From positions 1 through 20,366 of IMG/VR virus record IMGVR_UViG_3300042391_000814: DNA of 20,366 nt. One strand, 5' to 3'. The stretch comes from a virus. This document shows positions 1,952 through 20,366 of the stretch, piece by piece. How positions within the stretch are numbered: position 1 is the first letter of the stretch; each line of letters starts with the position of its first letter. Both the position numbers and the translations under genes were made by a program. The notes beneath the pieces are model-generated. The model was not told the DNA's origin and made no database searches. It saw only the letters and a list, made by a program, of their open reading frames with translations.

Positions 1952-2794
1952 ACGAACTATAAAGTTTATTGGATAGTCCGGTAATGATTTAATTGGTTGA
2001 GGTAATTTAGCTACAGCAACCATGTTTAATTCATTATCATATAATCCAATTGTAGTGATGTATGGTGCTAAATAAGAACCAGTTGGGTCAACAGACCCAC
2101 TATATAAGTAATCTGCAAATCCACCAACCTTTAACGGATTTATTGTAGAACGGATATTATGTAGTTTTATTCTACCAATACTTCCATCATAATCAACAGC
2201 GGTTGGGTTTTGGGATACATTAAATTCGTTTTCTAATACAGATAAAAATATTTCATTTTCGTATATTGTTTTGGTTGAACGAAAGTTTAAAGTAAATTGA
2301 TTTAATACAGAACCACTAACTATATCTTTTGTTACAACAACAAGTCCTCTATCATAAAATATATTACCCCAAATACTTCCAGTTACATCAACTAAATTTG
2401 AATATCCATCATCAGTATATGTTCTATTTGATGTTTCATCTTCCAATACTACAGTTCCAACCTTCATACCTTCACCATAATATCGTTGAGGTACTGAAAA
2501 TACTGCTATATTATCTTCTAATATACGTTCATCGGTTGATGCATATGATTTTCTATTACCAACTTCAGTTAAAATAGATGCGGTTGCCGAATTTGTATAA
2601 AATTGGCTTCTTATAGATGCATGTATTATTTTTTTAGTAAACCCTTGACTTTTAGAATCATATTCAGGATCTATAAACGTACCATCCCCATTTTCTCCAA
2701 AAATTGGAAAAATATCGTTTTCGTCTAATGTCCATTCTTTATAAACCTTAATAGGTCTTACGATAATATCAGATTTTGGAATTTCTTTAATCAT
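1940..2794 (-). CDS. Virion structural protein, paralogue of the 421-aa protein (284 aa)
   Basis: This is probably a tail or baseplate-associated virion protein of a type seen in T4-like marine phages. It is beta-rich and has no signal peptide or membrane segment. Its last ~100 residues share a module with the 421-aa neighbour: ENEFNVSQNPT, then APYITTIGLYD, then VAVAKLPQPIK. Upstream, IFYDRGLVVVTKDIV corresponds to LFYPDRGVIILNAKAI in the paralogue. The N-terminal part (SDIIVRPIKVYKEW) is not shared, so this is a shorter variant with a different N-terminus. It is separated from the 421-aa gene by a terminator, so it may have its own promoter; only a weak AT-rich motif (around 2813-2822) is visible there. 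The virion assignment is from family resemblance and context. Confidence 0.75.
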   Translation of the reverse strand: MIKEIPKSDIIVRPIKVYKEWTLDENDIFPIFGENGDGTFIDPEYDSKSQGFTKKIIHASIRSQFYTNSATASILTEVGNRKSYASTDERILEDNIAVFSVPQRYYGEGMKVGTVVLEDETSNRTYTDDGYSNLVDVTGSIWGNIFYDRGLVVVTKDIVSGSVLNQFTLNFRSTKTIYENEIFLSVLENEFNVSQNPTAVDYDGSIGRIKLHNIRSTINPLKVGGFADYLYSGSVDPTGSYLAPYITTIGLYDNELNMVAVAKLPQPIKSLPDYPINFIVRFDT

Positions 2795-2825
2795 TTAGTC
2801 TTCCGATTTGTATATAAATATTGAT

Positions 2826-2856
2826 TAAATAAAAAACCCCCATTGAAGGGGGTTCT
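2826..2856 (-). terminator. Rho-independent terminator after the 421-aa gene
   Basis: On the minus strand a perfect 7-bp stem AACCCCC / GGGGGTT (2835-2841 and 2848-2854) encloses a 6-nt loop. It is followed by a T-rich tract (TTTT, then ATTT). It begins 23 nt after the stop codon at 2878 and should end the long structural transcript. It is the only strong GC hairpin found in this AT-rich window. Confidence 0.88.
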
Positions 2857-2877
2857 CTTTATTATGTTTCTAATTAA

Positions 2878-4143
2878 TTAGAATGATAATTTAACTTTAA
2901 TTAAAACTTCCTTATCAAACGATTTAACGATTGGTTGGGATGTTTTAGCCACAGCAATCAATTCATTTGCATCATTGAAAAGTCCAATTGTTGTAATGAA
3001 TGTTTGTGGGTCGGTTTCAAATGTACCTTCTATAAAGAATCCATCAGCATCTACATATGTAGGGTTGTTAGAATAGTTAAATTCTCTATTCGTTGCTCTT
3101 ACAAAGAAATGTTGAGTAGAAATGTTTTCAGTTCTACGTGCTTCAAAATCAGCACCAGCTTCAATTGCTTTAATTAATCTAATTTGATTAAATTGTTCAG
3201 ATGCTTGTGAGTGAGAACCACTAACACTACCACTTACTAGCATAGTACCATCTTTAGTATATACTCTAGCAGGTGCTAAAATATCACCAACAACAGAACC
3301 AATTGCTTTAGCGTTAAGAATGATAACTCCTCTATCAGGATAGAATAAACCATATCCTTCACCAGTTACAGGTTTACCAACTGCTAAGTCAGTAGCTGTA
3401 TCTGCTTCATTTTTAATTGTAGCTTCATTTTCAGTTCCTAAGTTCAATGAACCAGAAACCACTTTGAATACTCTACCACTTAATCCTAAGTCATCTCCAA
3501 ATTTCTTACCACTATTATCAATAAATGTGAATAAACCATTTGTACCTCTTATCTTTAATGACCAGTTGCCAGCATCCATTTTTTCTCTAAATCTATTTCT
3601 AGCTATGTTAATTGCGTAAACACCATTTGCATCAGTTGCAATATTAGATGAATTTAAGAATGAGAATTTAGTATCAGTTGGGTCTAACAACATTGCTTTA
3701 TATTGAGCGTAAGTTGCTTTAGTTGCTAATAAAGCATTATCGTTATCAGCTAAGTTCATAGAACCACTACCATTAACGTGTCCATATGCTACTGCAAATT
3801 GAACTTCTTCGTTATCTCCTAAATCAGGATTACTATTATATACATTGAAATAGTAGTATCCACTATTTGTTGTTGTTTGACTTGATGCAGTATAGAATGC
3901 TGTTAATGAACCAGAATCCCCAGTCCACAATCCAGTTGTTACTACTTCTACTTTTGCGTTTACTTTATCAAATTCACCGAATCTTTTATAGATACCAGTT
4001 GAAATACCTGCACCAGCCGCAATTTGCTGTCCAGCCGGTAACACTGTATTTAATAATGCTACAATTTCATTTGAGTCCAGTGTACCCGTATTAGCTAAGT
4101 CTCTAATTTGGGCGGTTACATTAGGGTCGTTTATTAGTGCCAT
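2878..4143 (-). CDS. Virion structural protein (421 aa), tail/baseplate-associated
   Basis: This is a large, beta-rich, Gly/Ser/Asn-rich protein with no signal peptide or membrane segment, typical of a virion surface protein. The N-terminus (ALINDPNVTAQIRDLANTG) is helical. The middle contains W-S-L-K-I-R-G and Y-P-D-R-G-V-I-I-L segments. The C-terminal ~77 residues carry NREFNYSNNPTYV and ITTIGLFNDANELIAVAK, which recur in the 284-aa gene downstream. The two are therefore paralogues or share a module. I know such ITTIGL-x-AVAK C-termini from uncharacterised structural proteins of T4-like phages. The gene starts 18 nt after the 206-aa gene's stop and ends before a clear terminator, so it is likely the last gene of the long structural transcript. 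Confidence 0.8.
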   Translation of the reverse strand: MALINDPNVTAQIRDLANTGTLDSNEIVALLNTVLPAGQQIAAGAGISTGIYKRFGEFDKVNAKVEVVTTGLWTGDSGSLTAFYTASSQTTTNSGYYYFNVYNSNPDLGDNEEVQFAVAYGHVNGSGSMNLADNDNALLATKATYAQYKAMLLDPTDTKFSFLNSSNIATDANGVYAINIARNRFREKMDAGNWSLKIRGTNGLFTFIDNSGKKFGDDLGLSGRVFKVVSGSLNLGTENEATIKNEADTATDLAVGKPVTGEGYGLFYPDRGVIILNAKAIGSVVGDILAPARVYTKDGTMLVSGSVSGSHSQASEQFNQIRLIKAIEAGADFEARRTENISTQHFFVRATNREFNYSNNPTYVDADGFFIEGTFETDPQTFITTIGLFNDANELIAVAKTSQPIVKSFDKEVLIKVKLSF

Positions 4144-4161: not shown

Positions 4162-4782
4162 TTATGCTTTATAAGTTACAGTTACAGGAATAGTTTTTGA
4201 ACCTCCAGTTTCGTTACCATAAATAGTGATGGTTGTTGCAATATCCATTGTTAGGTTTGGATTTGGAGTAAATCTAAATTCTTGTCCACTAGCAACTTGT
4301 GCTGTTGTTGTTATTTCCTCACCTAAGAATACAGGCACACTTCCTACTGCGGTTGCTCCTCTAGTTACAGTTATTGTACCAGCTCTTGTATCAGCCAATA
4401 CAGCGGTATAACCTGCAGTTGTATTTGCCGGCGGTGTGGTTGTTGGTGTAATTGCATCACCACCTGCGTTTTGGTTTACACTAATTGAAGGTATTGTACT
4501 AATAGTAGGAATTTGGGTTGTTCCTTTAGCAAATGTAACCAATCTATATCTTAACACTTGAGTTTCATCAGGCGATGCTTCCGTAATAGGAATTGCTCTG
4601 ATTGCAGAATCGTAATAAGCCGAACCTTTTGGATGCGCTGGTTCGTAAAGCGTATAATCAATCTCGTCATCACCCAAAGCAAACTTTGTAATGTTTAAAG
4701 ATTGACCGGATGCTAATTTTTGTCTACCTTTTTTGGTAAGAATTGCATCTACTGTGATTTCCGAGTTATCTAAATATGCCAT
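4162..4782 (-). CDS. Tandem-duplicate virion protein, copy 2 (206 aa)
   Basis: This is an uncharacterised phage structural-type protein. The N-terminal domain (about residues 1-85) has YLDNSEI, ILTKKGRQKLASG and KFALGDDEIDY, a pattern I associate with T4-like virion proteins. The C-terminal half is Thr/Val/Gly-rich and looks like an Ig-like beta-sandwich, with FTPNPNL, YGNETGG and TVTYKA at the end. It is a clear tandem duplicate of the 204-aa gene: the N-terminal domain and the last strands are nearly the same, and the middle has diverged. It has no signal peptide or cysteine. A decoration, fibre-adaptor or neck role is possible; the sequence does not decide. Confidence 0.8.
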   Translation of the reverse strand: MAYLDNSEITVDAILTKKGRQKLASGQSLNITKFALGDDEIDYTLYEPAHPKGSAYYDSAIRAIPITEASPDETQVLRYRLVTFAKGTTQIPTISTIPSISVNQNAGGDAITPTTTPPANTTAGYTAVLADTRAGTITVTRGATAVGSVPVFLGEEITTTAQVASGQEFRFTPNPNLTMDIATTITIYGNETGGSKTIPVTVTYKA

Positions 4783-4880: not shown

Positions 4881-5495
4881 TTATGCTTTATAAATTACAT
4901 TAGTGGGTATGGTGCGTGAACCGCCGGTTTCATTTCCATAAACAGTGATAGTTGTATAAACATCAATTGTTAAATTTGGGTTGGGAATAAATATAAATTC
5001 ATTTCCAGTTACTACTTGTGCTGTTGATGTTAGTTCACCTGCTTCAAATACTGCTACTGATGTCATTTCTATTGCACCTTTACTAACTATTAATGTACCT
5101 GCCCTTTGGTCTGCCAATACTGCAGTATATCCGCCAATTGTATTTCCTTCGGGAGATGTATTAGGTGTTATTGTAATAAGTGAATCGCTTTGATTTACAC
5201 TAATTTTATTTGGAGATAATCTTACAACTGACATTTGGGTAGTTCCTTTTGGAAGGGTTACTAATTTGTGGTTTAGTGCATGTGTTTCATCAGAACATGC
5301 TTCAGTTATAGGAACACCTAACATTGTATAAGCTGGTCCATTTTCATTATTAACATCATAAAATGTATAATCAATCTCGTCATCACCCAAAGCAAACTTT
5401 GTAATATCTAGTTTTAAACCAGATGCTAATTTTTCTCTTCCTTTTTTAGTAAGGATAGCTTCTACTATGATTTCTGAATTATCTAAATATGCCAT
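4881..5495 (-). CDS. Tandem-duplicate virion protein, copy 1 (204 aa)
   Basis: This is the paralogue of the 206-aa protein that follows it. It shares MAYLDNSEI, ILTKKGREKLASG, KFALGDDEIDY, GYTAVLAD-x-RAGT, PNPNLT and YGNETGGS-x-TIP. It differs mainly in the linker around residues 50-115, and it has one Cys in ITEACSDET where copy 2 has Pro. A 41-nt block encoding the IDYT/ALGDDE region is identical between the copies (4652-4692 and 5365-5405). The order is an N-terminal conserved domain, then a C-terminal Ig-like beta domain. It is the first gene after the giant baseplate protein, with a 60-nt spacer. Keeping two diverging copies suggests hetero-oligomers or split roles, but this is inference. 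Confidence 0.8.
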   Translation of the reverse strand: MAYLDNSEIIVEAILTKKGREKLASGLKLDITKFALGDDEIDYTFYDVNNENGPAYTMLGVPITEACSDETHALNHKLVTLPKGTTQMSVVRLSPNKISVNQSDSLITITPNTSPEGNTIGGYTAVLADQRAGTLIVSKGAIEMTSVAVFEAGELTSTAQVVTGNEFIFIPNPNLTIDVYTTITVYGNETGGSRTIPTNVIYKA

Positions 5496-13168: not shown

Positions 13169-14242
13169 TTATTTTATAATATTGAATACAATTTCATCAT
13201 CAAAAAATTGAGTACTATCATTTAAATCTACTTTAAATTCTATTTTATATGCTCTATTAGCTTCCCAATTTGTTAAATTTAAATTAATGTAATTTCCAGT
13301 AGAATCACAACTAATTTTTGAATAATCTGAAAATGGTATTATTACATCTTCCGAATTAAAATCTTTTATCTGATAATATGTTGTATTTGGTAAATACTTT
13401 ATATCAGAATATTGAAATGTAGTTGAAAATGTTTTTATTGGATACATCTCTCTACCAAAAATTCTTAATTTATTAATAGTTCCTACTTTATATTCTTTTT
13501 TTAAATTAGTTATTCCTATTTTAATATTTTCAGAAACTATTGCACTTAAAGATGAAGTTACAAATTTTTGGTCATCCCATCCTATTCTTATTTTTGGTTG
13601 ATATATAGTATTTGTTTCTTTACTAAACAATTTAACAATACCATAATCCAATGAATCATCTTCAGCTTCAGCGGAATGTTTTATTATCATACCTTCATTT
13701 GAAATAGAACCACTCATCCATACTCTAAGCATAGATAATACATCCATATTTATATCGGCTGTTTGATAGTTAAAAGATTGATATGCAAATGGGGTTTTAT
13801 GCCAAACACCACCCCTACCATCACCAGGATATGAACCAGTTGATGTATTTAAAAATACATTAGTAGGTAACCAATCTAATGTAGAATCACCTTCTCTATA
13901 ATTCCAAGTTACTCCTTGTGTTGATATTTCATCAAATCTAGTACCATTGCCCATTTGCCAACTTTGAGAAATAGGATATGCATACAATGTATATTCCAAT
14001 GGAAGTTCTTCACTTTTAGTTTCTTTTAGTATTAATTCAGCTGAGCTCATTGTAATACTATTATTAGAAATTGATGCTGATATGTATCCTACATCAAATT
14101 TAATTAAAGTATGAGATATATCTCTAATATTACCATAGAAAACTTTACTAACTTCCAATATCTCATCCAATCCAGTATTTTGGTTTGGTTGTTGAAGATA
14201 TACCGATGCATCTTTTGATGCTGTTAAAAAATAATATGCCAT
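13169..14242 (-). CDS. DNRLRE-domain structural protein (357 aa)
   Basis: The N-terminal ~215 residues match the DNRLRE (CBM96-like) beta-sandwich pattern: KDASVYLQQPNQNTGL (about 10-25), HTLIKFDVGYI (44-54), then SSAELIL, YPISQSWQMG and GVTWNYREG. This fold is known in extracellular carbohydrate-binding or adhesive proteins, so a role in surface contact is plausible. The C-terminal ~140 residues are a separate beta-rich region. The start overlaps the stop of the gp6-like gene by one base (TAATG), which suggests coupled translation. It is therefore likely made with the wedge. There is no signal peptide, as expected for a cytosolically assembled virion protein. Whether it binds sugar or only serves as a scaffold is not shown. 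Confidence 0.78.
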   Translation of the reverse strand: MAYYFLTASKDASVYLQQPNQNTGLDEILEVSKVFYGNIRDISHTLIKFDVGYISASISNNSITMSSAELILKETKSEELPLEYTLYAYPISQSWQMGNGTRFDEISTQGVTWNYREGDSTLDWLPTNVFLNTSTGSYPGDGRGGVWHKTPFAYQSFNYQTADINMDVLSMLRVWMSGSISNEGMIIKHSAEAEDDSLDYGIVKLFSKETNTIYQPKIRIGWDDQKFVTSSLSAIVSENIKIGITNLKKEYKVGTINKLRIFGREMYPIKTFSTTFQYSDIKYLPNTTYYQIKDFNSEDVIIPFSDYSKISCDSTGNYINLNLTNWEANRAYKIEFKVDLNDSTQFFDDEIVFNIIK

Positions 14243-16278
14243 TATCTTACTCTACCTTTTATATCTGAATCTGGAAACTTTATTTCAAAAACCGATGGGT
14301 CTAAAGATGGATATACAATCTTATCTTTCGTTGCCGCATCTATATTATACGAATGCGGTGCATACTTACCACCACATTTATTTGTTATTTTTAACATTGG
14401 TACAGATGATACACCTTCTATATTTGCCAGCATCAATTCAATCTCACTTAAATTAATAGTTTGATTAAATGTCATATTATCTATTAAAAAATATTCTTTT
14501 AATGAAGTTATGCATTGTATTAGTATTTCACTTTTATTGTAATTTGGATAACATATAATTTCAAAATCAACTCCAATATTAATAACAAATCCATCTAACA
14601 TATTAACACCATCTGTTAATATTTTGTATTCATTTAAATATGTTTTAAGATTTTCTTTAACTGCTCTATTAATATTTGTTATATTATTATTTGAATCGTA
14701 TGCTAAAAGATATAAATTTATTGCAAATGGATTGTTCTTTTCATTTTCGTTAGAAGTTTTACCAACTAAAAATTTTGTAATTTGTTCTTTAACAATAGCT
14801 TGAGATGGTTCTTCTGAATCTGGTTTATTTACAAAACTCATAACTAAATCAGTAAATTCTTGCAAATGATTTGGAGATGCTAATATAGATGATGGTGAAT
14901 TGTTATCCAATGTACCATCGGCAACAGCGTAAGCTTTTGCAATAGCTCCAAATTTTGAAGGCATTGATAATACTCTAATTTGATAATCCTTTGCAGTTAC
15001 TGCTCTATTTTGTGCTGAAAAGTTAGCCAATGCATTTTCTCTTATTTCATTTATGCTATCACCACTCCTACCACCTGTTGCTGGGATTTCATTATCGATT
15101 GCAATTGAATCTTTCATTCTAATATATAAACTCAATTGCTGTGTGTTAAAGTAACTTGTATCTTCATCAAATTCAATACTATCTATTGTAGTTATTGAAT
15201 TAACCGGTACATTTGATATAACACCACCTCCGATTAAATATTTAACATCAATTGTTGTATTCGCTGGAGAAGTGCCATACGTTTTTGTTTTTAAGAAGTT
15301 TGTTGGGTCAAATGATTCTTCTAATCTACTAATAGAATTTGGTAATCCTAATCCAACATTTTTAAGATTTGGAATTAATTGTTCATCAGATGAAGTTGAA
15401 TCACCACCACCAAATTGTAAAGTTGTAGTTCTATCACTATTTACATTAGTTACAAATCTTCTTGATGTTTTTAATGTTTTTAGTATAAATGGAATTGTTG
15501 ATTTAAATTGATATAAATCAGGATCATTTGCTTCAGTATTTGGTTGTTCAATAAACACCATTTCTTGTGCTAAATATGGAACTTCATACCATTTGTTGTT
15601 ATTTGAATCTCTAACATCTAATATTTCTATTATATTAGTTTCAGGTAAATCAATTCTTTGGTATGGTGAATATGCATCAAATTGAACTGATTTATTAACG
15701 ATAGTACCTGCTCCAGCATCTACATATTTTTTTACAAGATAATAGGTTGGTTCTCCTGTTGTATTATCTCTTTCATAAACTGTTATTTCTCTGTTATTTT
15801 CATCAGAAAAATCTACAACATCTTTTGTTATAAAATTTATACCATTTACAGACGAACGAGCTTTCATTCCAGCCTTAATTCTAATATAATATTTTGAATC
15901 AGGCATATTATTTGCACTAACTCCGATTGATGGTACTAATTGATATACAGATAGTTTTGTTACAGCAGGCGCCGTAACTTTTGGCTTATATCCCAAATAT
16001 CTTGCTAATGGTATTACACTTTGTATATCATCCGCATATAACATTAATGATTGCTTAAATGTATCATCTACATAATAAGATAGAGTGTCACCTACATAAG
16101 ATGCCATCTCAATAAACATAGTACCTGGAGATGCTTCACTAAAGTCGTTATATGTTTTTGGAAAATAAGTTTTTGCAAATTCAATTAAATTATCTTTAAA
16201 TTGATTAAAATCTTTATTAAGATATTTTATATCCTTTCCTTTATTTTTAAAATTTGTATTTGTATTATTGAGTGCCAT
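14242..16278 (-). CDS. gp6: Baseplate wedge protein gp6-like (J family)
   Basis: This is the baseplate wedge core subunit of contractile phage tails (T4 gp6, P2 J, TssF in type VI secretion). It forms the ring around the hub and triggers sheath contraction. The N-terminal ~115 residues hold the family pattern IKYLNKDFNQFKDNLIEFAK, then DFSEASPGTMFIEMASYVGD and LARYLGYKPK. A later segment (ENALANFSAQNRAVTAKDYQ) matches the J-like domain entry (RAVT-x2-DY). At 678 aa its length is close to T4 gp6 (660 aa). It lies 3 nt downstream of the gp25-like gene and overlaps the DNRLRE gene by one base. Assignment is strong from motifs plus neighbour order. Confidence 0.93.
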   Translation of the reverse strand: MALNNTNTNFKNKGKDIKYLNKDFNQFKDNLIEFAKTYFPKTYNDFSEASPGTMFIEMASYVGDTLSYYVDDTFKQSLMLYADDIQSVIPLARYLGYKPKVTAPAVTKLSVYQLVPSIGVSANNMPDSKYYIRIKAGMKARSSVNGINFITKDVVDFSDENNREITVYERDNTTGEPTYYLVKKYVDAGAGTIVNKSVQFDAYSPYQRIDLPETNIIEILDVRDSNNNKWYEVPYLAQEMVFIEQPNTEANDPDLYQFKSTIPFILKTLKTSRRFVTNVNSDRTTTLQFGGGDSTSSDEQLIPNLKNVGLGLPNSISRLEESFDPTNFLKTKTYGTSPANTTIDVKYLIGGGVISNVPVNSITTIDSIEFDEDTSYFNTQQLSLYIRMKDSIAIDNEIPATGGRSGDSINEIRENALANFSAQNRAVTAKDYQIRVLSMPSKFGAIAKAYAVADGTLDNNSPSSILASPNHLQEFTDLVMSFVNKPDSEEPSQAIVKEQITKFLVGKTSNENEKNNPFAINLYLLAYDSNNNITNINRAVKENLKTYLNEYKILTDGVNMLDGFVINIGVDFEIICYPNYNKSEILIQCITSLKEYFLIDNMTFNQTINLSEIELMLANIEGVSSVPMLKITNKCGGKYAPHSYNIDAATKDKIVYPSLDPSVFEIKFPDSDIKGRVR

Positions 16279-16281
16279 ATG

Positions 16282-16713
16282 TTATCCCTTTATATTAAAA
16301 TCTACTGTAAAAGCTTGGTTATTGTAATTAGCTATAAATGTAATACTAACTCCTACTTGATTTGCATTTTTCATTTCGTCTGTTGCTTCTACAAATATAT
16401 CCGCAATACTCAATTGAGGTAGCCAATATTTAATTGAACTTTCAACGGCTTGGTATATTTTACCTTCAAGACTATCATCGTTTGGTTCAAAAAGTAATTT
16501 ATGTAAATCAGTACCAAAATTTGGTTGAGCAACCCGTTCCCCTTTTCTAGTTAAAAGTAAATTTTTTACATTTGATTTTAATTGTAATAAATTATCATAT
16601 GATTGATTGAAAGTATTAGTTGACATTTGTAATGGCAATGTTAATCCTATTGCATAATCATCGATTTGTTCATTTCCATTACTTAATATATATGTTCCTA
16701 ATACTACTGCCAT
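16282..16713 (-). CDS. gp25: Baseplate wedge protein gp25-like (GPW/TssE)
   Basis: This small baseplate protein joins the wedge to the tail sheath in contractile tails and is homologous to P2 W and type VI TssE. The diagnostic stretch is LLTRKGERVAQPNFGTDLHK (residues 53-72) followed by LLFEP. It includes the conserved GER (58-60) that in TssE/gp25 proteins serves sheath binding. At 143 aa it is close to T4 gp25 (132 aa). It starts 2 nt after the 165-aa gene and is followed by the gp6-like gene after 3 nt, the usual neighbour pair for this family. No anomaly was seen. Confidence 0.95.
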   Translation of the reverse strand: MAVVLGTYILSNGNEQIDDYAIGLTLPLQMSTNTFNQSYDNLLQLKSNVKNLLLTRKGERVAQPNFGTDLHKLLFEPNDDSLEGKIYQAVESSIKYWLPQLSIADIFVEATDEMKNANQVGVSITFIANYNNQAFTVDFNIKG

Positions 16714-16715
16714 TA

Positions 16716-17213
16716 TTACTTTTTAAATCTTTTTACAAGTTCTGAATAATCTCTATTCAATGCTTTATCTATTTCAGCTACTCCAGTATTTACTCCCAAT
16801 CCAGTTGGAGAAGGTCCTTTAGCCATATCACCATAACCCATTTTATCGGCTACTGCCGTTCTACCTGCAATTGAACCCATATCACCTTGTCCAAAATTCA
16901 TTGTTCTGAACCCTCCATCTCCTTGTGGTATTCCACCTCTGGTTTCATTAAGGATTTGGTTAATCATTGGGTTTTTACTGTATTGCTTTGTTGGTGCGGC
17001 TTTTTGTTGAACCGATTCTACGATTGGTTCATCTTCTAAAATAGCCTTAGCCATTGAAATACCCTTTGATTGTGGTTTTGGTGCTACTTTTGTTTCAGAT
17101 AGCATCTTTTTCATTTCAGCCTTCACACCTTCCTTAATTAAAGCAGGTAATTGCTCTTTAAGCTCCTCTTTAATAAGAATTTGAATGGCTTCTAATAGTT
17201 TATCCATGTCCAT
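16716..17213 (-). CDS. Small structural-region protein, unknown (165 aa)
   Basis: I do not recognise this protein. The N-terminal ~40 residues form a charged amphipathic helix likely to be a coiled coil (LLEAIQILIKEELKEQLPALI). The middle is Gln/Ser/Pro-rich and low in structure. The C-terminal part has NPMINQILNETRGGIP and a Gly/Met-rich loop, and ends in a basic helix (LVKRFKK). There is no signal peptide or cysteine. It lies directly upstream of the gp25-like gene (2-nt gap) and after a 66-nt AT-rich spacer, so it may begin the wedge transcription unit. A chaperone or small wedge role is possible, but nothing in the sequence shows it. Confidence 0.7.
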   Translation of the reverse strand: MDMDKLLEAIQILIKEELKEQLPALIKEGVKAEMKKMLSETKVAPKPQSKGISMAKAILEDEPIVESVQQKAAPTKQYSKNPMINQILNETRGGIPQGDGGFRTMNFGQGDMGSIAGRTAVADKMGYGDMAKGPSPTGLGVNTGVAEIDKALNRDYSELVKRFKK

Positions 17214-17279: not shown

Positions 17280-18152
17280 TTATTTTGCAAATATAGTACC
17301 TCCTATTACTTTTGCTGTTGGTGGGTTTAACTTAGTTCTTTCTCGGAGAGCATACATGAAATTTATATTAGTACCTGCTTTATAGTTGTCTGCACCATTT
17401 GCTGTAAAATAATACCAATCTCTAGGTACATCTTTTAAGAATGTAGTGGACCCATATATAGCTTGAGCACTAGCTGCACTTGGTCCAGTTATGAAAGCTG
17501 GAACAGGCCCGGGTTTGAATCTCGTACCAGTAACCGGTTGAAATTGGAATGGTTGTGATATAATATCAATTAAATTTGCAAACTTATATTTTGCGTTTTT
17601 GAAACCAGCCGGTGTGAAACTATCTCTAGTTCTATTTAATATAATACCCATAACCCATCCTCTTTCAGTTTGATTTGTTGATGATTCAGCGTTAGTTAGT
17701 GATACTAAATTATTCCATTCAGCATCACTCATAGACCTACCCAAATACGCTTCTGCTGTTTTTCTAGCTTCATCGTTTGAAGCTTTAAAATTAGTTTGAG
17801 GTGTATTTGCTGTATTTGGAGTGGTACTACCATCTACTCTAGTATATTGAGTTGGTGTAAAATTTGATCTGTATTCAAGTTCCAAATCCACTTCTTCTGT
17901 AAATCTATCACGTGTAACTAATGCATCGGATTGAAAATTTGTTCTACCTGATATAGTATCTTGTTGAGTTGGTAGTTCATCTGGAATTTTATAACCGGTC
18001 CATCTACATATACTTGGTGCAGGTGGTAATGGTGGCTGGTATGTAGATAAAACAGATGCCTGCCCAGATACAGTTAATAGATGAGCTTTTGCATATCGTA
18101 TAAAGTCATCTACTAATAATATTGGATTACTATTTGGTTCTACATATGACAT
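17280..18152 (-). CDS. SleB-like cell-wall hydrolase, probable baseplate lysozyme
   Basis: This is probably a peptidoglycan-cleaving enzyme (SleB/CwlJ Hydrolase_2 fold, a lytic transglycosylase type) that opens the cell wall during injection. The catalytic domain is the C-terminal ~170 residues: NAES with the likely catalytic Glu156, then RGWVMGIILNRT (164-175), then QPFQFQPV (200-207), WYYFTA (246-251) and a final IGGTIFA. The N-terminal ~120 residues are an unrecognised region with a Pro-rich start (PPLPPAPS). There is no signal peptide, which argues for a virion location rather than export for lysis. It overlaps the SGNH hydrolase gene by one base (TAATG). An endolysin role is the alternative. 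Confidence 0.75.
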   Translation of the reverse strand: MSYVEPNSNPILLVDDFIRYAKAHLLTVSGQASVLSTYQPPLPPAPSICRWTGYKIPDELPTQQDTISGRTNFQSDALVTRDRFTEEVDLELEYRSNFTPTQYTRVDGSTTPNTANTPQTNFKASNDEARKTAEAYLGRSMSDAEWNNLVSLTNAESSTNQTERGWVMGIILNRTRDSFTPAGFKNAKYKFANLIDIISQPFQFQPVTGTRFKPGPVPAFITGPSAASAQAIYGSTTFLKDVPRDWYYFTANGADNYKAGTNINFMYALRERTKLNPPTAKVIGGTIFAK

Positions 18153-19270
18153 TATAAAGCGTTTATTATTATATTTGCAATTTGTCTAGCCTGTACTGCG
18201 CTTGGGTGAATACCATCTATTGTTAATGGTCCAAGATCAAATATTCCTATAAATTTAGCATTTTGAATTGTAGTTGGCATTTGTTGTTGATATTCGTTAT
18301 ATCTTTCTATTAAAGGAATATATTCGCTTATATCTTTCAAATATCTTGTAACTTTCAGTCTAGTGTAATCCATATTTTTTACATCATATCCAATTATAAC
18401 GTATGCTTTAGCTCCATTTGAAATTGCCAAATCAACCATTTTTTGTATATTACCTAAAGCCGCTTTAAAGGAAACCCCAGAAAACATATCATTAGTACCA
18501 CCCCATATATAAACTCTATCATATTTTGTAGTTGCTAATTGAGATGGTAGATTTTGTAGCATCCAACTTGTTTGTTTTGCTGGGATAGCTAATACATCTA
18601 CAGTTGCGTTTGGTAATGATTTTCTAACAGAGGTTGGATATGTCCAAGTAATATTCTGTCCTTTTTCATTTATTATAGCTGATAGAGAATCTCCTACAAA
18701 TAATATTTTTTCTTTTGTATTTGTATCTATTGGGTCTGCCGTAGTAGCATTTGCACCAATTCCCGTAATTCTATTGTTATTTGTGGATTGATTATTATTT
18801 ATATTAATGGCAGCTAATGGTTTTATCCATTTACCGGGGTTTGATACTATATTTGAATAAACTACAATGTTAGCAGTAACTCCACTTATCAATTGTTGTA
18901 TCGTTACTAATGGTATTGGAAAAATATTCATTGTTATTGCACCCGGTGGTGGTTGGTTTGGATTTGGTGGGATTAATAGTGGTGGTGCTGGTTTAGTACT
19001 CCAATAAGCAATAACCCCTTTACCCATTTCACCAACTAAATCATATTTTTCATTATAGTTAAGACCATTATCTAAAGCTTTTTTAAAATAAGCTTCCATA
19101 GCTTGAACATTTCCTTTTTGTAATGGTACTTTATTTACAATATCCCCACCCCTCTTAACTGCCAAATCATATTCTCTAGCATATGTCTTTGCAATTATAT
19201 CAGTATTACCAATGTTTTCAGGTCTAAGTGATATTTGTAATATATTTTTTCTAAATATTTCCCAAGACAT
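18152..19270 (-). CDS. SGNH/GDSL hydrolase with N-terminal virion-type domain (372 aa)
   Basis: The C-terminal ~185 residues form an SGNH/GDSL hydrolase, a fold that removes acyl groups from sugars, lipids or polymers. Its hallmark blocks are complete: GDS with nucleophile Ser195, GGTND with oxyanion Asn260, and DGIH with Asp352 and His355. The block II glycine seems replaced by Ala (around AIPAKQ, 228-233). The N-terminal ~110 residues have a pattern (FRKNILQIS, then AREYDLAVKRGGDIV, then LVGEMGKGVIAYW) seen in phage structural-region proteins. A Pro-rich linker (93-109) and an Asn-rich stretch (about 155-167) separate the parts. It sits with the spike and lysozyme genes, so a tail-associated esterase is inferred. 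The substrate is unknown. Confidence 0.82.
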   Translation of the reverse strand: MSWEIFRKNILQISLRPENIGNTDIIAKTYAREYDLAVKRGGDIVNKVPLQKGNVQAMEAYFKKALDNGLNYNEKYDLVGEMGKGVIAYWSTKPAPPLLIPPNPNQPPPGAITMNIFPIPLVTIQQLISGVTANIVVYSNIVSNPGKWIKPLAAININNNQSTNNNRITGIGANATTADPIDTNTKEKILFVGDSLSAIINEKGQNITWTYPTSVRKSLPNATVDVLAIPAKQTSWMLQNLPSQLATTKYDRVYIWGGTNDMFSGVSFKAALGNIQKMVDLAISNGAKAYVIIGYDVKNMDYTRLKVTRYLKDISEYIPLIERYNEYQQQMPTTIQNAKFIGIFDLGPLTIDGIHPSAVQARQIANIIINAL

Positions 19271-19271
19271 A

Positions 19272-19850
19272 TTATCCTCCTATTTTATTTGCAATATTAG
19301 AAACCGAGTTTTGTGCTTGTGATTGTAAATTTGATATTGCACCTTGTGCGTTTGATGCTAAACCTTGTGCTTGCGATGCTAAACCTTGTGCCTGTGATGC
19401 TAATCCTTTAGCTTTAGATGCAAGAGCTTCTGCTTGGTTTTTTGCATTAAGTACTGATTCTTTTGCAGAATTTAATTGATTTGCAAATCCTTTTAATTTT
19501 TTCTTTTCTAATATTTTTTCTTTTTTAGTTTTTGGCATTTTTTTAGGCTTTAGTTGAAACAACGCAGCTTTAGCTTTAAACTTTAAAACTTTTAAATTTG
19601 GTTTTTTAGGAATTTCAGGAAGATTTGGAGGTATTGGTAGTTTTGATTTTAAACTAGCTAATAAAGCTTTAGGGTCAACTGCTCCATTTTCTAATCCCTT
19701 TAATGCATTTCTAACAGCATCTACACTACCTGCTCCCGGAATTGAACTAAGTGCTCCTTTTGCTAAATTAGTTGCGGATGATATTGCACCCTGTGCTAAA
19801 TTGGTTGCAGATGATACTGCTCCTTGAGCTATATTTGTTAAATTATCCAT
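19272..19850 (-). CDS. Repetitive Ala/Gln/Gly protein with basic centre (192 aa)
   Basis: I do not recognise a named family. The N-terminus has three 11-residue repeats of the form TN-L/I-A-Q/K-GA-x-SSA (residues 5-36). The middle is very basic and Pro/Lys-rich (KKMPKTKKEKILEKKKLKG). The C-terminal ~60 residues contain heptads of the form LASQAQG, which could form a coiled coil or amphipathic helix. There is no signal peptide or cysteine. It starts 1 nt after the spike gene's stop and ends 1 nt before the SGNH gene, so all three are coupled. Such a protein could be a tail-tube plug or spike-associated factor, but this is inference. Confidence 0.75.
   Translation of the reverse strand: MDNLTNIAQGAVSSATNLAQGAISSATNLAKGALSSIPGAGSVDAVRNALKGLENGAVDPKALLASLKSKLPIPPNLPEIPKKPNLKVLKFKAKAALFQLKPKKMPKTKKEKILEKKKLKGFANQLNSAKESVLNAKNQAEALASKAKGLASQAQGLASQAQGLASNAQGAISNLQSQAQNSVSNIANKIGG
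19276..19281 (-). promoter_or_regulatory. Strong Shine-Dalgarno site for the SGNH hydrolase
   Basis: AGGAGG lies 5 nt before the ATG at 19270 on the minus strand, inside the last codons of the 192-aa gene (Gly-Gly then stop). Most other starts in the window have only A/T-rich leaders, so this one stands out and fixes the start. Confidence 0.7.
19341..19424 (-). repeat. 21-bp tandem repeats encoding LASQAQG heptads
   Basis: Three near-identical 21-bp units (19341-19361, 19362-19382, 19383-19403), each starting ACCTTGTGC on the plus strand, are followed by a more diverged fourth unit (19404-19424). They encode 7-residue repeats and are in frame. Confidence 0.8.
19743..19838 (-). repeat. 33-bp imperfect repeats encoding 11-residue units
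   Basis: Three in-frame units encode TN-L/I-A-Q/K-GA-V/I/L-SS at residues 5-36 of the 192-aa protein. The period differs from the 21-bp heptads at the other end of the same gene, so the two ends were repeated independently. Confidence 0.7.
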
Positions 19851-19851
19851 A

Positions 19852-20366
19852 TTAAGATGTTTGATTTGTTTTACTCATCATATTTGCTAATTTATCACTT
19901 ATTGCAATAAAATCATTATAATTTTCGGGCCCTACTGCAGTTGGTCCAGATGGTGTTTTAAATGTTTGAGAAAGAATAGCTATTATAAGTTCTTCAAATA
20001 TTTTTTTCAATTCATTTCCTTTTACTAATGGTTCTAAATTATTATCACCTAAAAATATTGCACCATTTCCGGTCTTAAATAAAACATCCCTTCCGTTTGT
20101 ATCAATATTAATATTATCATTAACACTAACATCAATACCACCTTTATTATCAATTGACATACCACCATCCGATATAAATCCGTAATTCTTTTTTGAATGA
20201 AATATAAGTTCTCCACTTTTTGCAGAAAATATTAATCTACCAGAATTTAAAAGTATTTGGTCTCCAGTTAATTTATCAGGATAATCCGTAAATGAATCCG
20301 GTTTAGTCGTATTTGTACTTGAAAATGGTAATTGATATTGATTAGATGACATTACCAAAACACTAC
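19852..20366 (-). CDS. gp5-like baseplate spike protein, C-terminal part (5' end beyond window)
   Basis: This looks like the C-terminal part of a baseplate spike or hub protein. DQILLNSGRLIFSAKSGELI (about residues 35-54) and a run of short beta turns with Gly/Asp/Asn (GGMSIDNKGGIDVSVNDN) suggest a beta-helix or stacked-strand spike. A helical tail follows (LKKIFEELIIAILSQ). The frame is open to the right window edge with no stop. An internal ATG lies at 20352 and a TTG at 20358, but the gene probably starts further upstream. The gp5 label comes from this pattern plus the neighbouring hydrolases; no lysozyme domain is visible in this part. A free-standing 166-aa protein is the alternative. 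Confidence 0.65.
   Translation of the reverse strand, partial: SVLVMSSNQYQLPFSSTNTTKPDSFTDYPDKLTGDQILLNSGRLIFSAKSGELIFHSKKNYGFISDGGMSIDNKGGIDVSVNDNINIDTNGRDVLFKTGNGAIFLGDNNLEPLVKGNELKKIFEELIIAILSQTFKTPSGPTAVGPENYNDFIAISDKLANMMSKTNQTS

Follow-up and report, generated by a model that had tools for sequence, protein, structure and literature searches.

Two conserved N-terminal domains with exchangeable predicted wall enzymes beside the tail spike of uncultured phages

Results and Discussion

Conserved anchors between the spike and gp25 genes

The IMG/VR virus record IMGVR_UViG_3300042391_000814 (20,366 nt, analysed whole and hereafter called the window) carries, on its minus strand, a row of genes running from a tail-spike protein to a gp6-like baseplate protein. 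Two adjacent genes of this row, X and Y, encode predicted cell-wall enzymes. Comparison with related loci indicates that the X and Y proteins each consist of a conserved N-terminal domain (the anchor), a linker and an exchangeable C-terminal enzyme (the cargo), and this architecture is the main point of the analysis, going beyond an earlier note on this DNA. X and Y probably belong to a two-slot tip of a contractile-tailed phage, in which exchangeable wall enzymes borne on conserved N-terminal domains would be carried in with the spike.

In the window, gene X (18152-19270, minus strand, 372 aa; Pfam, AlphaFold2, Foldseek and VIA) begins with the X anchor (residues 1-148, 18827-19270), delimited by profile matches and an AlphaFold2 model, and ends with an SGNH/GDSL hydrolase domain (residues 186-372, 18155-18715, with Ser195, Asn260, Asp352 and His355), recognised by its conserved residues and fold match. 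Gene Y (17280-18152, minus strand, 290 aa) encodes the Y anchor (residues 1-57, 17982-18152; profile matches and predicted model) and a SleB/Hydrolase_2-like domain (residues 115-290, 17283-17810), assigned through matches of family members to PF07486, through Glu156 and through VIA.

The comparison started from nine IMG/VR contigs with a SleB-like gene, and profile scans covered the best 80 of 238 and the best 80 of 165 confirmed loci, the 165 being those of the scan with the SGNH protein. The pairing of X with Y took loci with both spike and gp25 (153 of the 174 with any marker), several of which are stretches of one contig. Distinctness was judged on the last 600 nt of the spike gene, leaving 90 distinct loci that include three named outgroup records and, hence, 87 X/Y loci, all from uncultured phages. 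Shorter spike pieces gave an empty key, and the window and locus L151 are not among the 87 because this empty key merged both with L125. The 87 loci include near relatives: the 83 with near-full spikes form 55 clusters at 90% spike identity, the four partial-spike loci being excluded both from this clustering and from the spike tree, to which the three outgroups were added.

In the SGNH-protein scan, 62 of the best 80 of 165 loci matched the N-terminal part of the protein alone, up to residue 148-230. The X anchor in this part spans about 130-150 aa and the Y anchor about 57 aa, with the enzymes attached C-terminally as cargo. Both anchors lie between spike and gp25 in 87/87 distinct loci, whatever the cargo. 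They were likewise present in 80/80 loci found with the spike profile, all of which have spike and gp25, and the anchor finding was therefore not caused by searching with the SGNH protein. The order spike, X, Y (or fused X-Y), gp25 is kept in contig L003, which is 98.4% identical to the window across about 6.5 kb, and in 86 further distinct loci, so the gene row is not due to chance. X and Y are separate genes in 76 of the 87 loci and fused, with the anchors back to back, in the other 11; the presence of two enzymes beside the spike, noted earlier for the window alone, is thus common in this phage group.

None of 38 X anchors matched a Pfam family at E≤0.01, and the Y anchor likewise had no Pfam match. 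In the AlphaFold2 models, the X anchor forms four helices followed by a poorly structured proline-rich stretch, the Y anchor consists of one helix and two strands, and prediction quality is lowest in the linkers of both proteins. Anchors without cargo also exist, as a 187-aa X-Y fusion (L081:1499-2062), which matched nothing among annotated phages, and as 69-aa Y proteins (L064:4221-4430 and L080:10677-10886).

These anchors bear on the reading that X and Y serve in lysis or assembly and, although encoded in the baseplate row, are not built into the tip. It finds a parallel in g16 of the Rhodobacter gene transfer agent, which is SleB-like by model comparison, lies after the tail genes and is described with its role in ingress or egress left open (PMC9552610). 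We regard this reading as quite improbable, given that conserved N-terminal domains link the enzymes with the baseplate genes in every X/Y locus, that cargo-free anchors would be of no use to a lysis enzyme, and that a 1441-1543-aa protein, encoded in L027 beside a baseplate-type gene, bears the SleB-like domain as well.

Two other records have unusual proteins in the same slot. In the 484-kb uncultured phage LR756508, a 175-aa protein (L013:8040-8567) may be a distant anchor-only version; its hhalign probability was 65% against the X anchor (best of 20 shuffles, 1.6%) and a weak 10% against the Y anchor, with one of 20 shuffles reaching 7%. The protein in the spike-gp25 slot of immuto (L012:10393-11508) is annotated as "DNA repair ATPase RecN", an assignment that looks doubtful, and by eye looks like a coiled-coil structural protein.

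Cargo repertoire of the two slots

Pfam typing was performed on 20 cargo representatives, with the members of a cluster inheriting its type and open reading frames open at a locus end excluded from the clustering. It assigned cargo clusters to GH19, M15_4, Hydrolase_2, CHAP, VanY, GH24, M15_3, M23 and SGNH, the Hydrolase_2 and M23 matches being below their cut-offs and L154 itself below that of M15_3. Among the 87 loci, the commonest pairs (X+Y) were SGNH+SleB-like (17), cluster 7+GH19 (11), CHAP+GH24 (8) and VanY+GH19 (7), followed by M15_4+GH19 (6), VanY+M15_4 (5), M15_4+M15_4 (5), M15_4+SleB-like (2) and other split combinations (15). The 11 fused X-Y proteins carry GH24 (3), cluster 10 (3), M23 (2), a SleB-like domain (1), M15_3 (1) or, in L081, no cargo.

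The two slots differ in what they bear. Of the 76 split loci, 46 have a peptidase- or CHAP-type cluster in the X slot, 18 have SGNH there, 11 have cluster 7 and one has a broken gene, and the Y slot holds GH19 in 28, SleB-like domains in 19 and GH24 in eight, making 55 of glycosidase type, with 21 others that include 11 M15_4. Glycosidase clusters were found on X in 0/76 split loci and on Y in 55/76. A full-length SleB-like partner accompanies SGNH in 17 of 18 loci, the exception being L074 with its broken partner gene. The SGNH+SleB-like pair fills 13 of the 55 spike clusters.

Some VanY cargos have an extra domain (L056:2903-4819, L137:4629-6179 and L153:3275-4822, and in the middle of L065:7242-8918 and L101:4116-6038). 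By eye, this domain resembles an alpha/beta hydrolase, with a GxSxG-like Ser and, in the aligned L056 and L137, a His near the end. It is possibly a second esterase-type enzyme, for which the Pfam and PDB searches gave no support. Searched against solved structures, the extra domain of L137 and the single cargos of clusters 7, 10 and 14 gave nothing below E 0.015.

Exchange of cargos

Spikes that are 94-95% identical can go with different cargos. Loci L154 and L155 share 95% identity in the spike, 99% in gp25 and 92% in the X anchor, with an X cargo of cluster 8 (M15_3-type) in L154 and of cluster 7 in L155. Both cargos differ between L077 and L132 (spike 90%, both anchors 88% identical), and L087 and L100 have X cargos that are 91% identical and Y cargos of different families, M15_4 and GH19 respectively. 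Altogether, 36 pairs of split loci whose spikes share 75% identity or more differ in cargo label, eight of them through broken genes. Seven of these pairs involve L091, rejected as a swap since its X gene (2547-3751) is split by a frameshift, with VanY pieces in two frames; the eighth involves L074, also rejected, the Y gene of which (3162-3856) has an internal deletion covering the Glu156 region, with a change of frame. Either broken gene may be due to sequencing error; in L074, decay is another possible cause.

On the spike tree, a quick tree made without bootstrap, X labels of 15 kinds required 23 changes (minimum 14) and Y labels of 18 kinds required 21 (minimum 17), both raw counts without a shuffled control.

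The SGNH and SleB-like enzymes

The SGNH domain of the window matches Pfam Lipase_GDSL_2 (PF13472) with 43.4 bits, above the cut-off of 32.9. Gly193-Asp194-Ser195, Gly258, Asn260, Asp352 and His355 are identical in 17/17 SGNH rows (alignment A8), and the catalytic set of the SGNH superfamily (Ser in GDS, block III Asn, block V Asp and His) is complete in all of them. In the AlphaFold2 model (predicted local distance difference test, pLDDT, 83.6), four N-terminal helices are followed by a linker that is predicted poorly (residues 152-173) and by an SGNH fold, the best solved match of which is 4rsh_A (VIA; Z 19.4, root-mean-square deviation 2.4, 163 residues). By sequence and fold, the domain is thus a complete SGNH esterase with predicted activity. 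Compared with annotated phages, the whole protein gave a single weak and unrelated match.

The assignment of the Y domain is weaker. The window protein scored 13.9 bits with PF07486, against a curated cut-off of 27, and there is no above-cut-off match to this family in the window record; the best whole-protein score was 25.6 bits (L024). The family was found at E≤0.01 in 13 of 20 family domains (best, 6.6e-6), the window domain not being among them. As these scores fall below the cut-off, the protein is filed as SleB-like only. NCBIfam gave nothing over its cut-off, the protein had no match among annotated phages, and a scan of genome contigs with the SleB-like alignment yielded 161 pattern matches, of which 0 were confirmed. 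Glu156 and Asn173-Arg174 are conserved in 24/24 SleB-like rows (alignment A7), and the spacing from Glu to Asn-Arg was compared with that of SleB. Because of the conserved Glu156 and the motif order, the Y domain is probably a lytic transglycosylase. The catalytic residue of Bacillus cereus SleB is Glu157 (PMC11533991), and SleB and MltG are described as related (PMC8135044, PMC11533991).

In the model of the Y protein (pLDDT 84.5), the helix and two-strand anchor is followed by a mainly helical C-terminal domain. Among 130 chains re-aligned by VIA, the best row was 8yq7_D, an MltG (Z 4.7, deviation 3.8, 115 aligned residues), and the second was 2r1f_A, YceG (Z 3.8, deviation 5.7, 128 aligned), both with low Z. 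There were no SleB entries among the Foldseek or VIA rows, an absence compatible with kinship to SleB. The catalytic residues named in the earlier note, Ser195/Asp352/His355 and Glu156, are present and conserved across both families, and those of the X and Y enzymes are kept in proteins down to 36% identity with the window's.

The SleB-like domain also forms the C-terminus of the large 1441-1543-aa protein mentioned above (L027:4176-8501, L028:4176-8501 and L032:3909-8540), with a 1344-aa version, open at the contig end, at L029:3-4037. In L027, this gene directly follows one of baseplate type (PHROG 7145, with Tail_X and LysM matches under the Pfam cut-off), and its product may be a hub that has the enzyme built in. 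Among 13 longer but fragmentary records of the group, none gave a match to the whole large protein, and five matched its C-terminal SleB-like part alone.

A spike without a recognisable lysozyme

Of the spike, the window covers no more than the C-terminal ~170 residues (19852-20366, minus strand, open at the contig end), recognised by aligned full-length relatives (alignments A2 and A6), and the full gene was taken from the relative L003 (876-2084, 402 aa). The earlier note took the enzymes to be separate from the spike, and its missing upstream part, read in relatives, bears this out: the full-length L003 spike had no lysozyme by Pfam and PHROGs, and a lysozyme family was found in 0/44 full-length spike relatives (Pfam, E≤0.01). 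A spike carrying its own lysozyme upstream, which the earlier note named as grounds for refuting it, is accordingly rejected on the sequence of these relatives. DUF2345, which we take to be a VgrG spike domain, matched in two of the 44 (Pfam). Sequence searches of solved structures with alignments A1, A2, A9 and A10 gave no believable match.

In phage T4, gp5 is the spike protein of the contractile tail. It contains its own lysozyme (PMC5380687), whereas none of the 44 spikes here matches a lysozyme family, and in relatives it is Y or a fused X-Y protein that bears GH24 lysozyme. A lysozyme-free spike, contrasted with T4 gp5 in the earlier note, is not unusual, as the spike fold of the Anabaena myophage A-1(L) is also described without one (PMC10966104).

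Proposed function of the pair

Synteny and the natural X-Y fusions suggest that X and Y are probably docked at the spike or hub. Type VI secretion and contractile injection systems have cargo adaptors, which such docking domains may resemble in logic. As the sheath contracts, the spike would pierce the outer membrane and take both tethered enzymes to the periplasm. There, the SleB/MltG-like domain of Y would cut the glycan strand, and the likeliest task of the SGNH esterase of X would be to remove O-acetyl groups from C-6 of N-acetylmuramic acid, freeing the SleB-like enzyme to cut. We put this de-O-acetylation at somewhat less than an even chance. It is proposed because lytic transglycosylases need a free C-6 hydroxyl (PMC1199599), and also because of the company of wall-directed enzymes in the X slot and of a known partnership: in Neisseria, the de-O-acetylase Ape1 and the lytic transglycosylase LtgA join in a complex in which each stimulates the other (PMC1199599, PMC7083599). 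Those are cellular enzymes, and the analogy is one of function only. The level of peptidoglycan O-acetylation is 69.4% for Bacteroides fragilis and 27.0% for B. thetaiotaomicron (PMC1199599).

As a tentative extension, we envisage an interchangeable two-socket tip with at least nine Pfam cargo families, three of them M15-type peptidases, in which X favours peptide and ester cutters and Y glycan cutters, and in which an injected esterase would here unmask acetylated peptidoglycan for a transglycosylase, countering wall O-acetylation. If true, this would be an injected phage counter to such modification, with two undescribed docking domains in an uncultured lineage. The SGNH and SleB-like pair poses a testable question, namely whether a tail-borne esterase serves to pass O-acetylated peptidoglycan.

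Several observations weigh against the proposed function of the pair. Some cargos are untyped, clusters 7, 10, 13 and 14 having no meaningful Pfam match. At residue 231, presumably the block II oxyanion-hole glycine, Gly is found in 15 of the 17 SGNH rows and Ala in two, including the window. The fold matches of the SGNH domain tie between aryl esterase, carbohydrate acetylesterase and TesA (Z 18.8 and 18.7 for the acetylesterase and the TesA-type thioesterase), so that its substrate is not readable from these matches. Foldseek found no solved match to the SleB-like model better than E 2.8. SleB-like domains occur outside the SGNH pair, with M15_4 in L024 and L025 and as a single cargo in L058. 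The motifs of Ape enzymes, GDS(H/F) and Dx(V/T)H (Ape1 being GDSL-type; PMC1199599), were found in 0/17 SGNH rows, in which GDS is followed by I (14), V (2) or L (1) and the second motif reads D-G-(F 13, L 3, I 1)-H; the protein is consequently not filed as Ape, and may do Ape-like work. Finally, the loci with SGNH+SleB-like form a single clade of the spike tree (19 rows when L058 is counted; Shimodaira-Hasegawa-like approximate likelihood ratio test, 99), with two changes of the SGNH state, and the 17 intact pairs are therefore not 17 independent cases; their co-occurrence was rejected as independent evidence.

This single clade would fit the view that the SGNH and SleB-like enzymes are functionally unrelated and that their pairing is an inherited accident of independent cargo swapping, as would the separate changes of the two slots' cargos elsewhere. 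We find this view doubtful, because both active sites are kept across the clade and a full-length SleB-like partner is missing only where the gene is broken, in L074.

A further alternative concerns the timing and target of the esterase. The earlier note had acyl groups removed from surface polymers or lipids first, for which we found no evidence here; the SGNH enzyme would, on such an account, act before puncture on acyl groups of capsule or O-antigen, or on outer-membrane lipids, leaving peptidoglycan to the SleB-like enzyme. Tailspike deacetylases and tail-fibre SGNH domains are described (PMC5380687, PMC10684548), the SGNH domain of L009 matches tail-fibre PHROG 5240 (E 3.2e-8), and the best fold matches include TesA, an acyl thioesterase/lysophospholipase. 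The X anchor, however, bears peptidase- or CHAP-type clusters in most split loci, which makes peptidoglycan the likelier SGNH target; moreover, the X gene sits between spike and gp25, and Pfam and PHROG scans of its 372 aa found no fibre or receptor-binding family beyond the SGNH-domain matches. Action before puncture is thus unlikely, and we retain peptidoglycan as the preferred target.

Relation to known systems

Judged by gene order, anchors and conserved catalytic residues, the system is most likely a variant of the virion-associated lysins, with the Gp44 protein of Staphylococcus phage phi11 and the A-1(L) hub as its closest counterparts. Like the pair described here, phi11 Gp44 (Tal) combines, at the tail tip, an endopeptidase with a carbohydrate-esterase-like SGNH domain, the activity of which is uncharacterised there too (PMC4876445). 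It differs in being one siphovirus protein, the Tal/hub itself, of a phage with a Gram-positive host, whereas we find two proteins with two separate anchors, a contractile tail and a probable glycan-cutting partner. The A-1(L) hub gp15 shares with our system the contractile tail, the lysozyme-free spike fold and an endoglucanase and a peptidase at the baseplate centre; the hub carries lysozyme-like, endoglucanase and peptidase domains (PMC10966104). Its enzymes, by contrast, are built into the hub, and the available part of that report describes no SGNH domain or exchangeable anchor (PMC10966104). In Microcystis phage Mel-JY01, on which our literature search found no paper, gp6 is 42% identical and a protein annotated as a putative chitinase lies between spike and gp25; the X and Y anchors were not detected, however, and the putative chitinase has no Pfam match at E≤1.

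According to a 2017 review, most virion wall enzymes have one lytic domain, and two different ones are named only for PRD1 and phi11 (PMC5380687). The tail-tip combination of SGNH and endopeptidase (phi11 Gp44) and the presence of glycan and peptide cutters in a myophage baseplate (A-1(L)) are already known from the reports cited above. A literature search of titles and abstract beginnings, with most subscription journals outside its range, found no description of this system. As far as searched, the N-terminal domain pair with interchangeable cargo and the pairing of an esterase with a SleB-like enzyme are new. Since the domains are conserved and the enzymes exchangeable, many uncultured phages become available for comparing the choice of enzyme with the wall chemistry of the host.

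Other genes of the row

The earlier note described the spike end, a repeat protein, the SGNH gene and the SleB-like gene as a tightly packed row, and coordinates and sequence letters agree: the first two junctions are gaps of 1 nt each, and the third is a 1-nt overlap (TAATG). The repeat protein (192 aa, 19272-19850, minus strand; Tandem Repeats Finder arrays, alignment A4), the gene of which contains 21-nt and 33-nt units, is optional in relatives, a profile match being found in 31 of the 90 distinct loci. Downstream of Y, and likewise on the minus strand, lie a conserved 165-aa protein (16716-17213), with a profile match in 87/87 X/Y loci, a gp25-like baseplate wedge protein (16282-16713; Pfam GPW_gp25, 52.6 bits) and a gp6-like baseplate wedge protein (14242-16278; PHROG 219, E 8.3e-16). 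The closest annotated relatives of the last are from phages of Microcystis (42.2% identity) and Flavobacterium (37.6%), a kinship that offers a hint at the host and not an assignment.

By eye, the 165-aa protein has NRDYSELVKRF near its end, and similar endings occur in the same slot of LR756508 (NRDYSELV) and Mel-JY01 (NRDYTQLM); immuto has a gene in this slot without such an ending. Elsewhere in the tail region of the window, the protein encoded at 13169-14242 has a weak CBM96-like N-terminus (E 6.5e-4; 20 bits, cut-off 26), and two adjacent genes (4162-4782 and 4881-5495) encode proteins of ~205 aa that by eye are apparent paralogues, starting with MAYLDNSEI...ILTKKGR.

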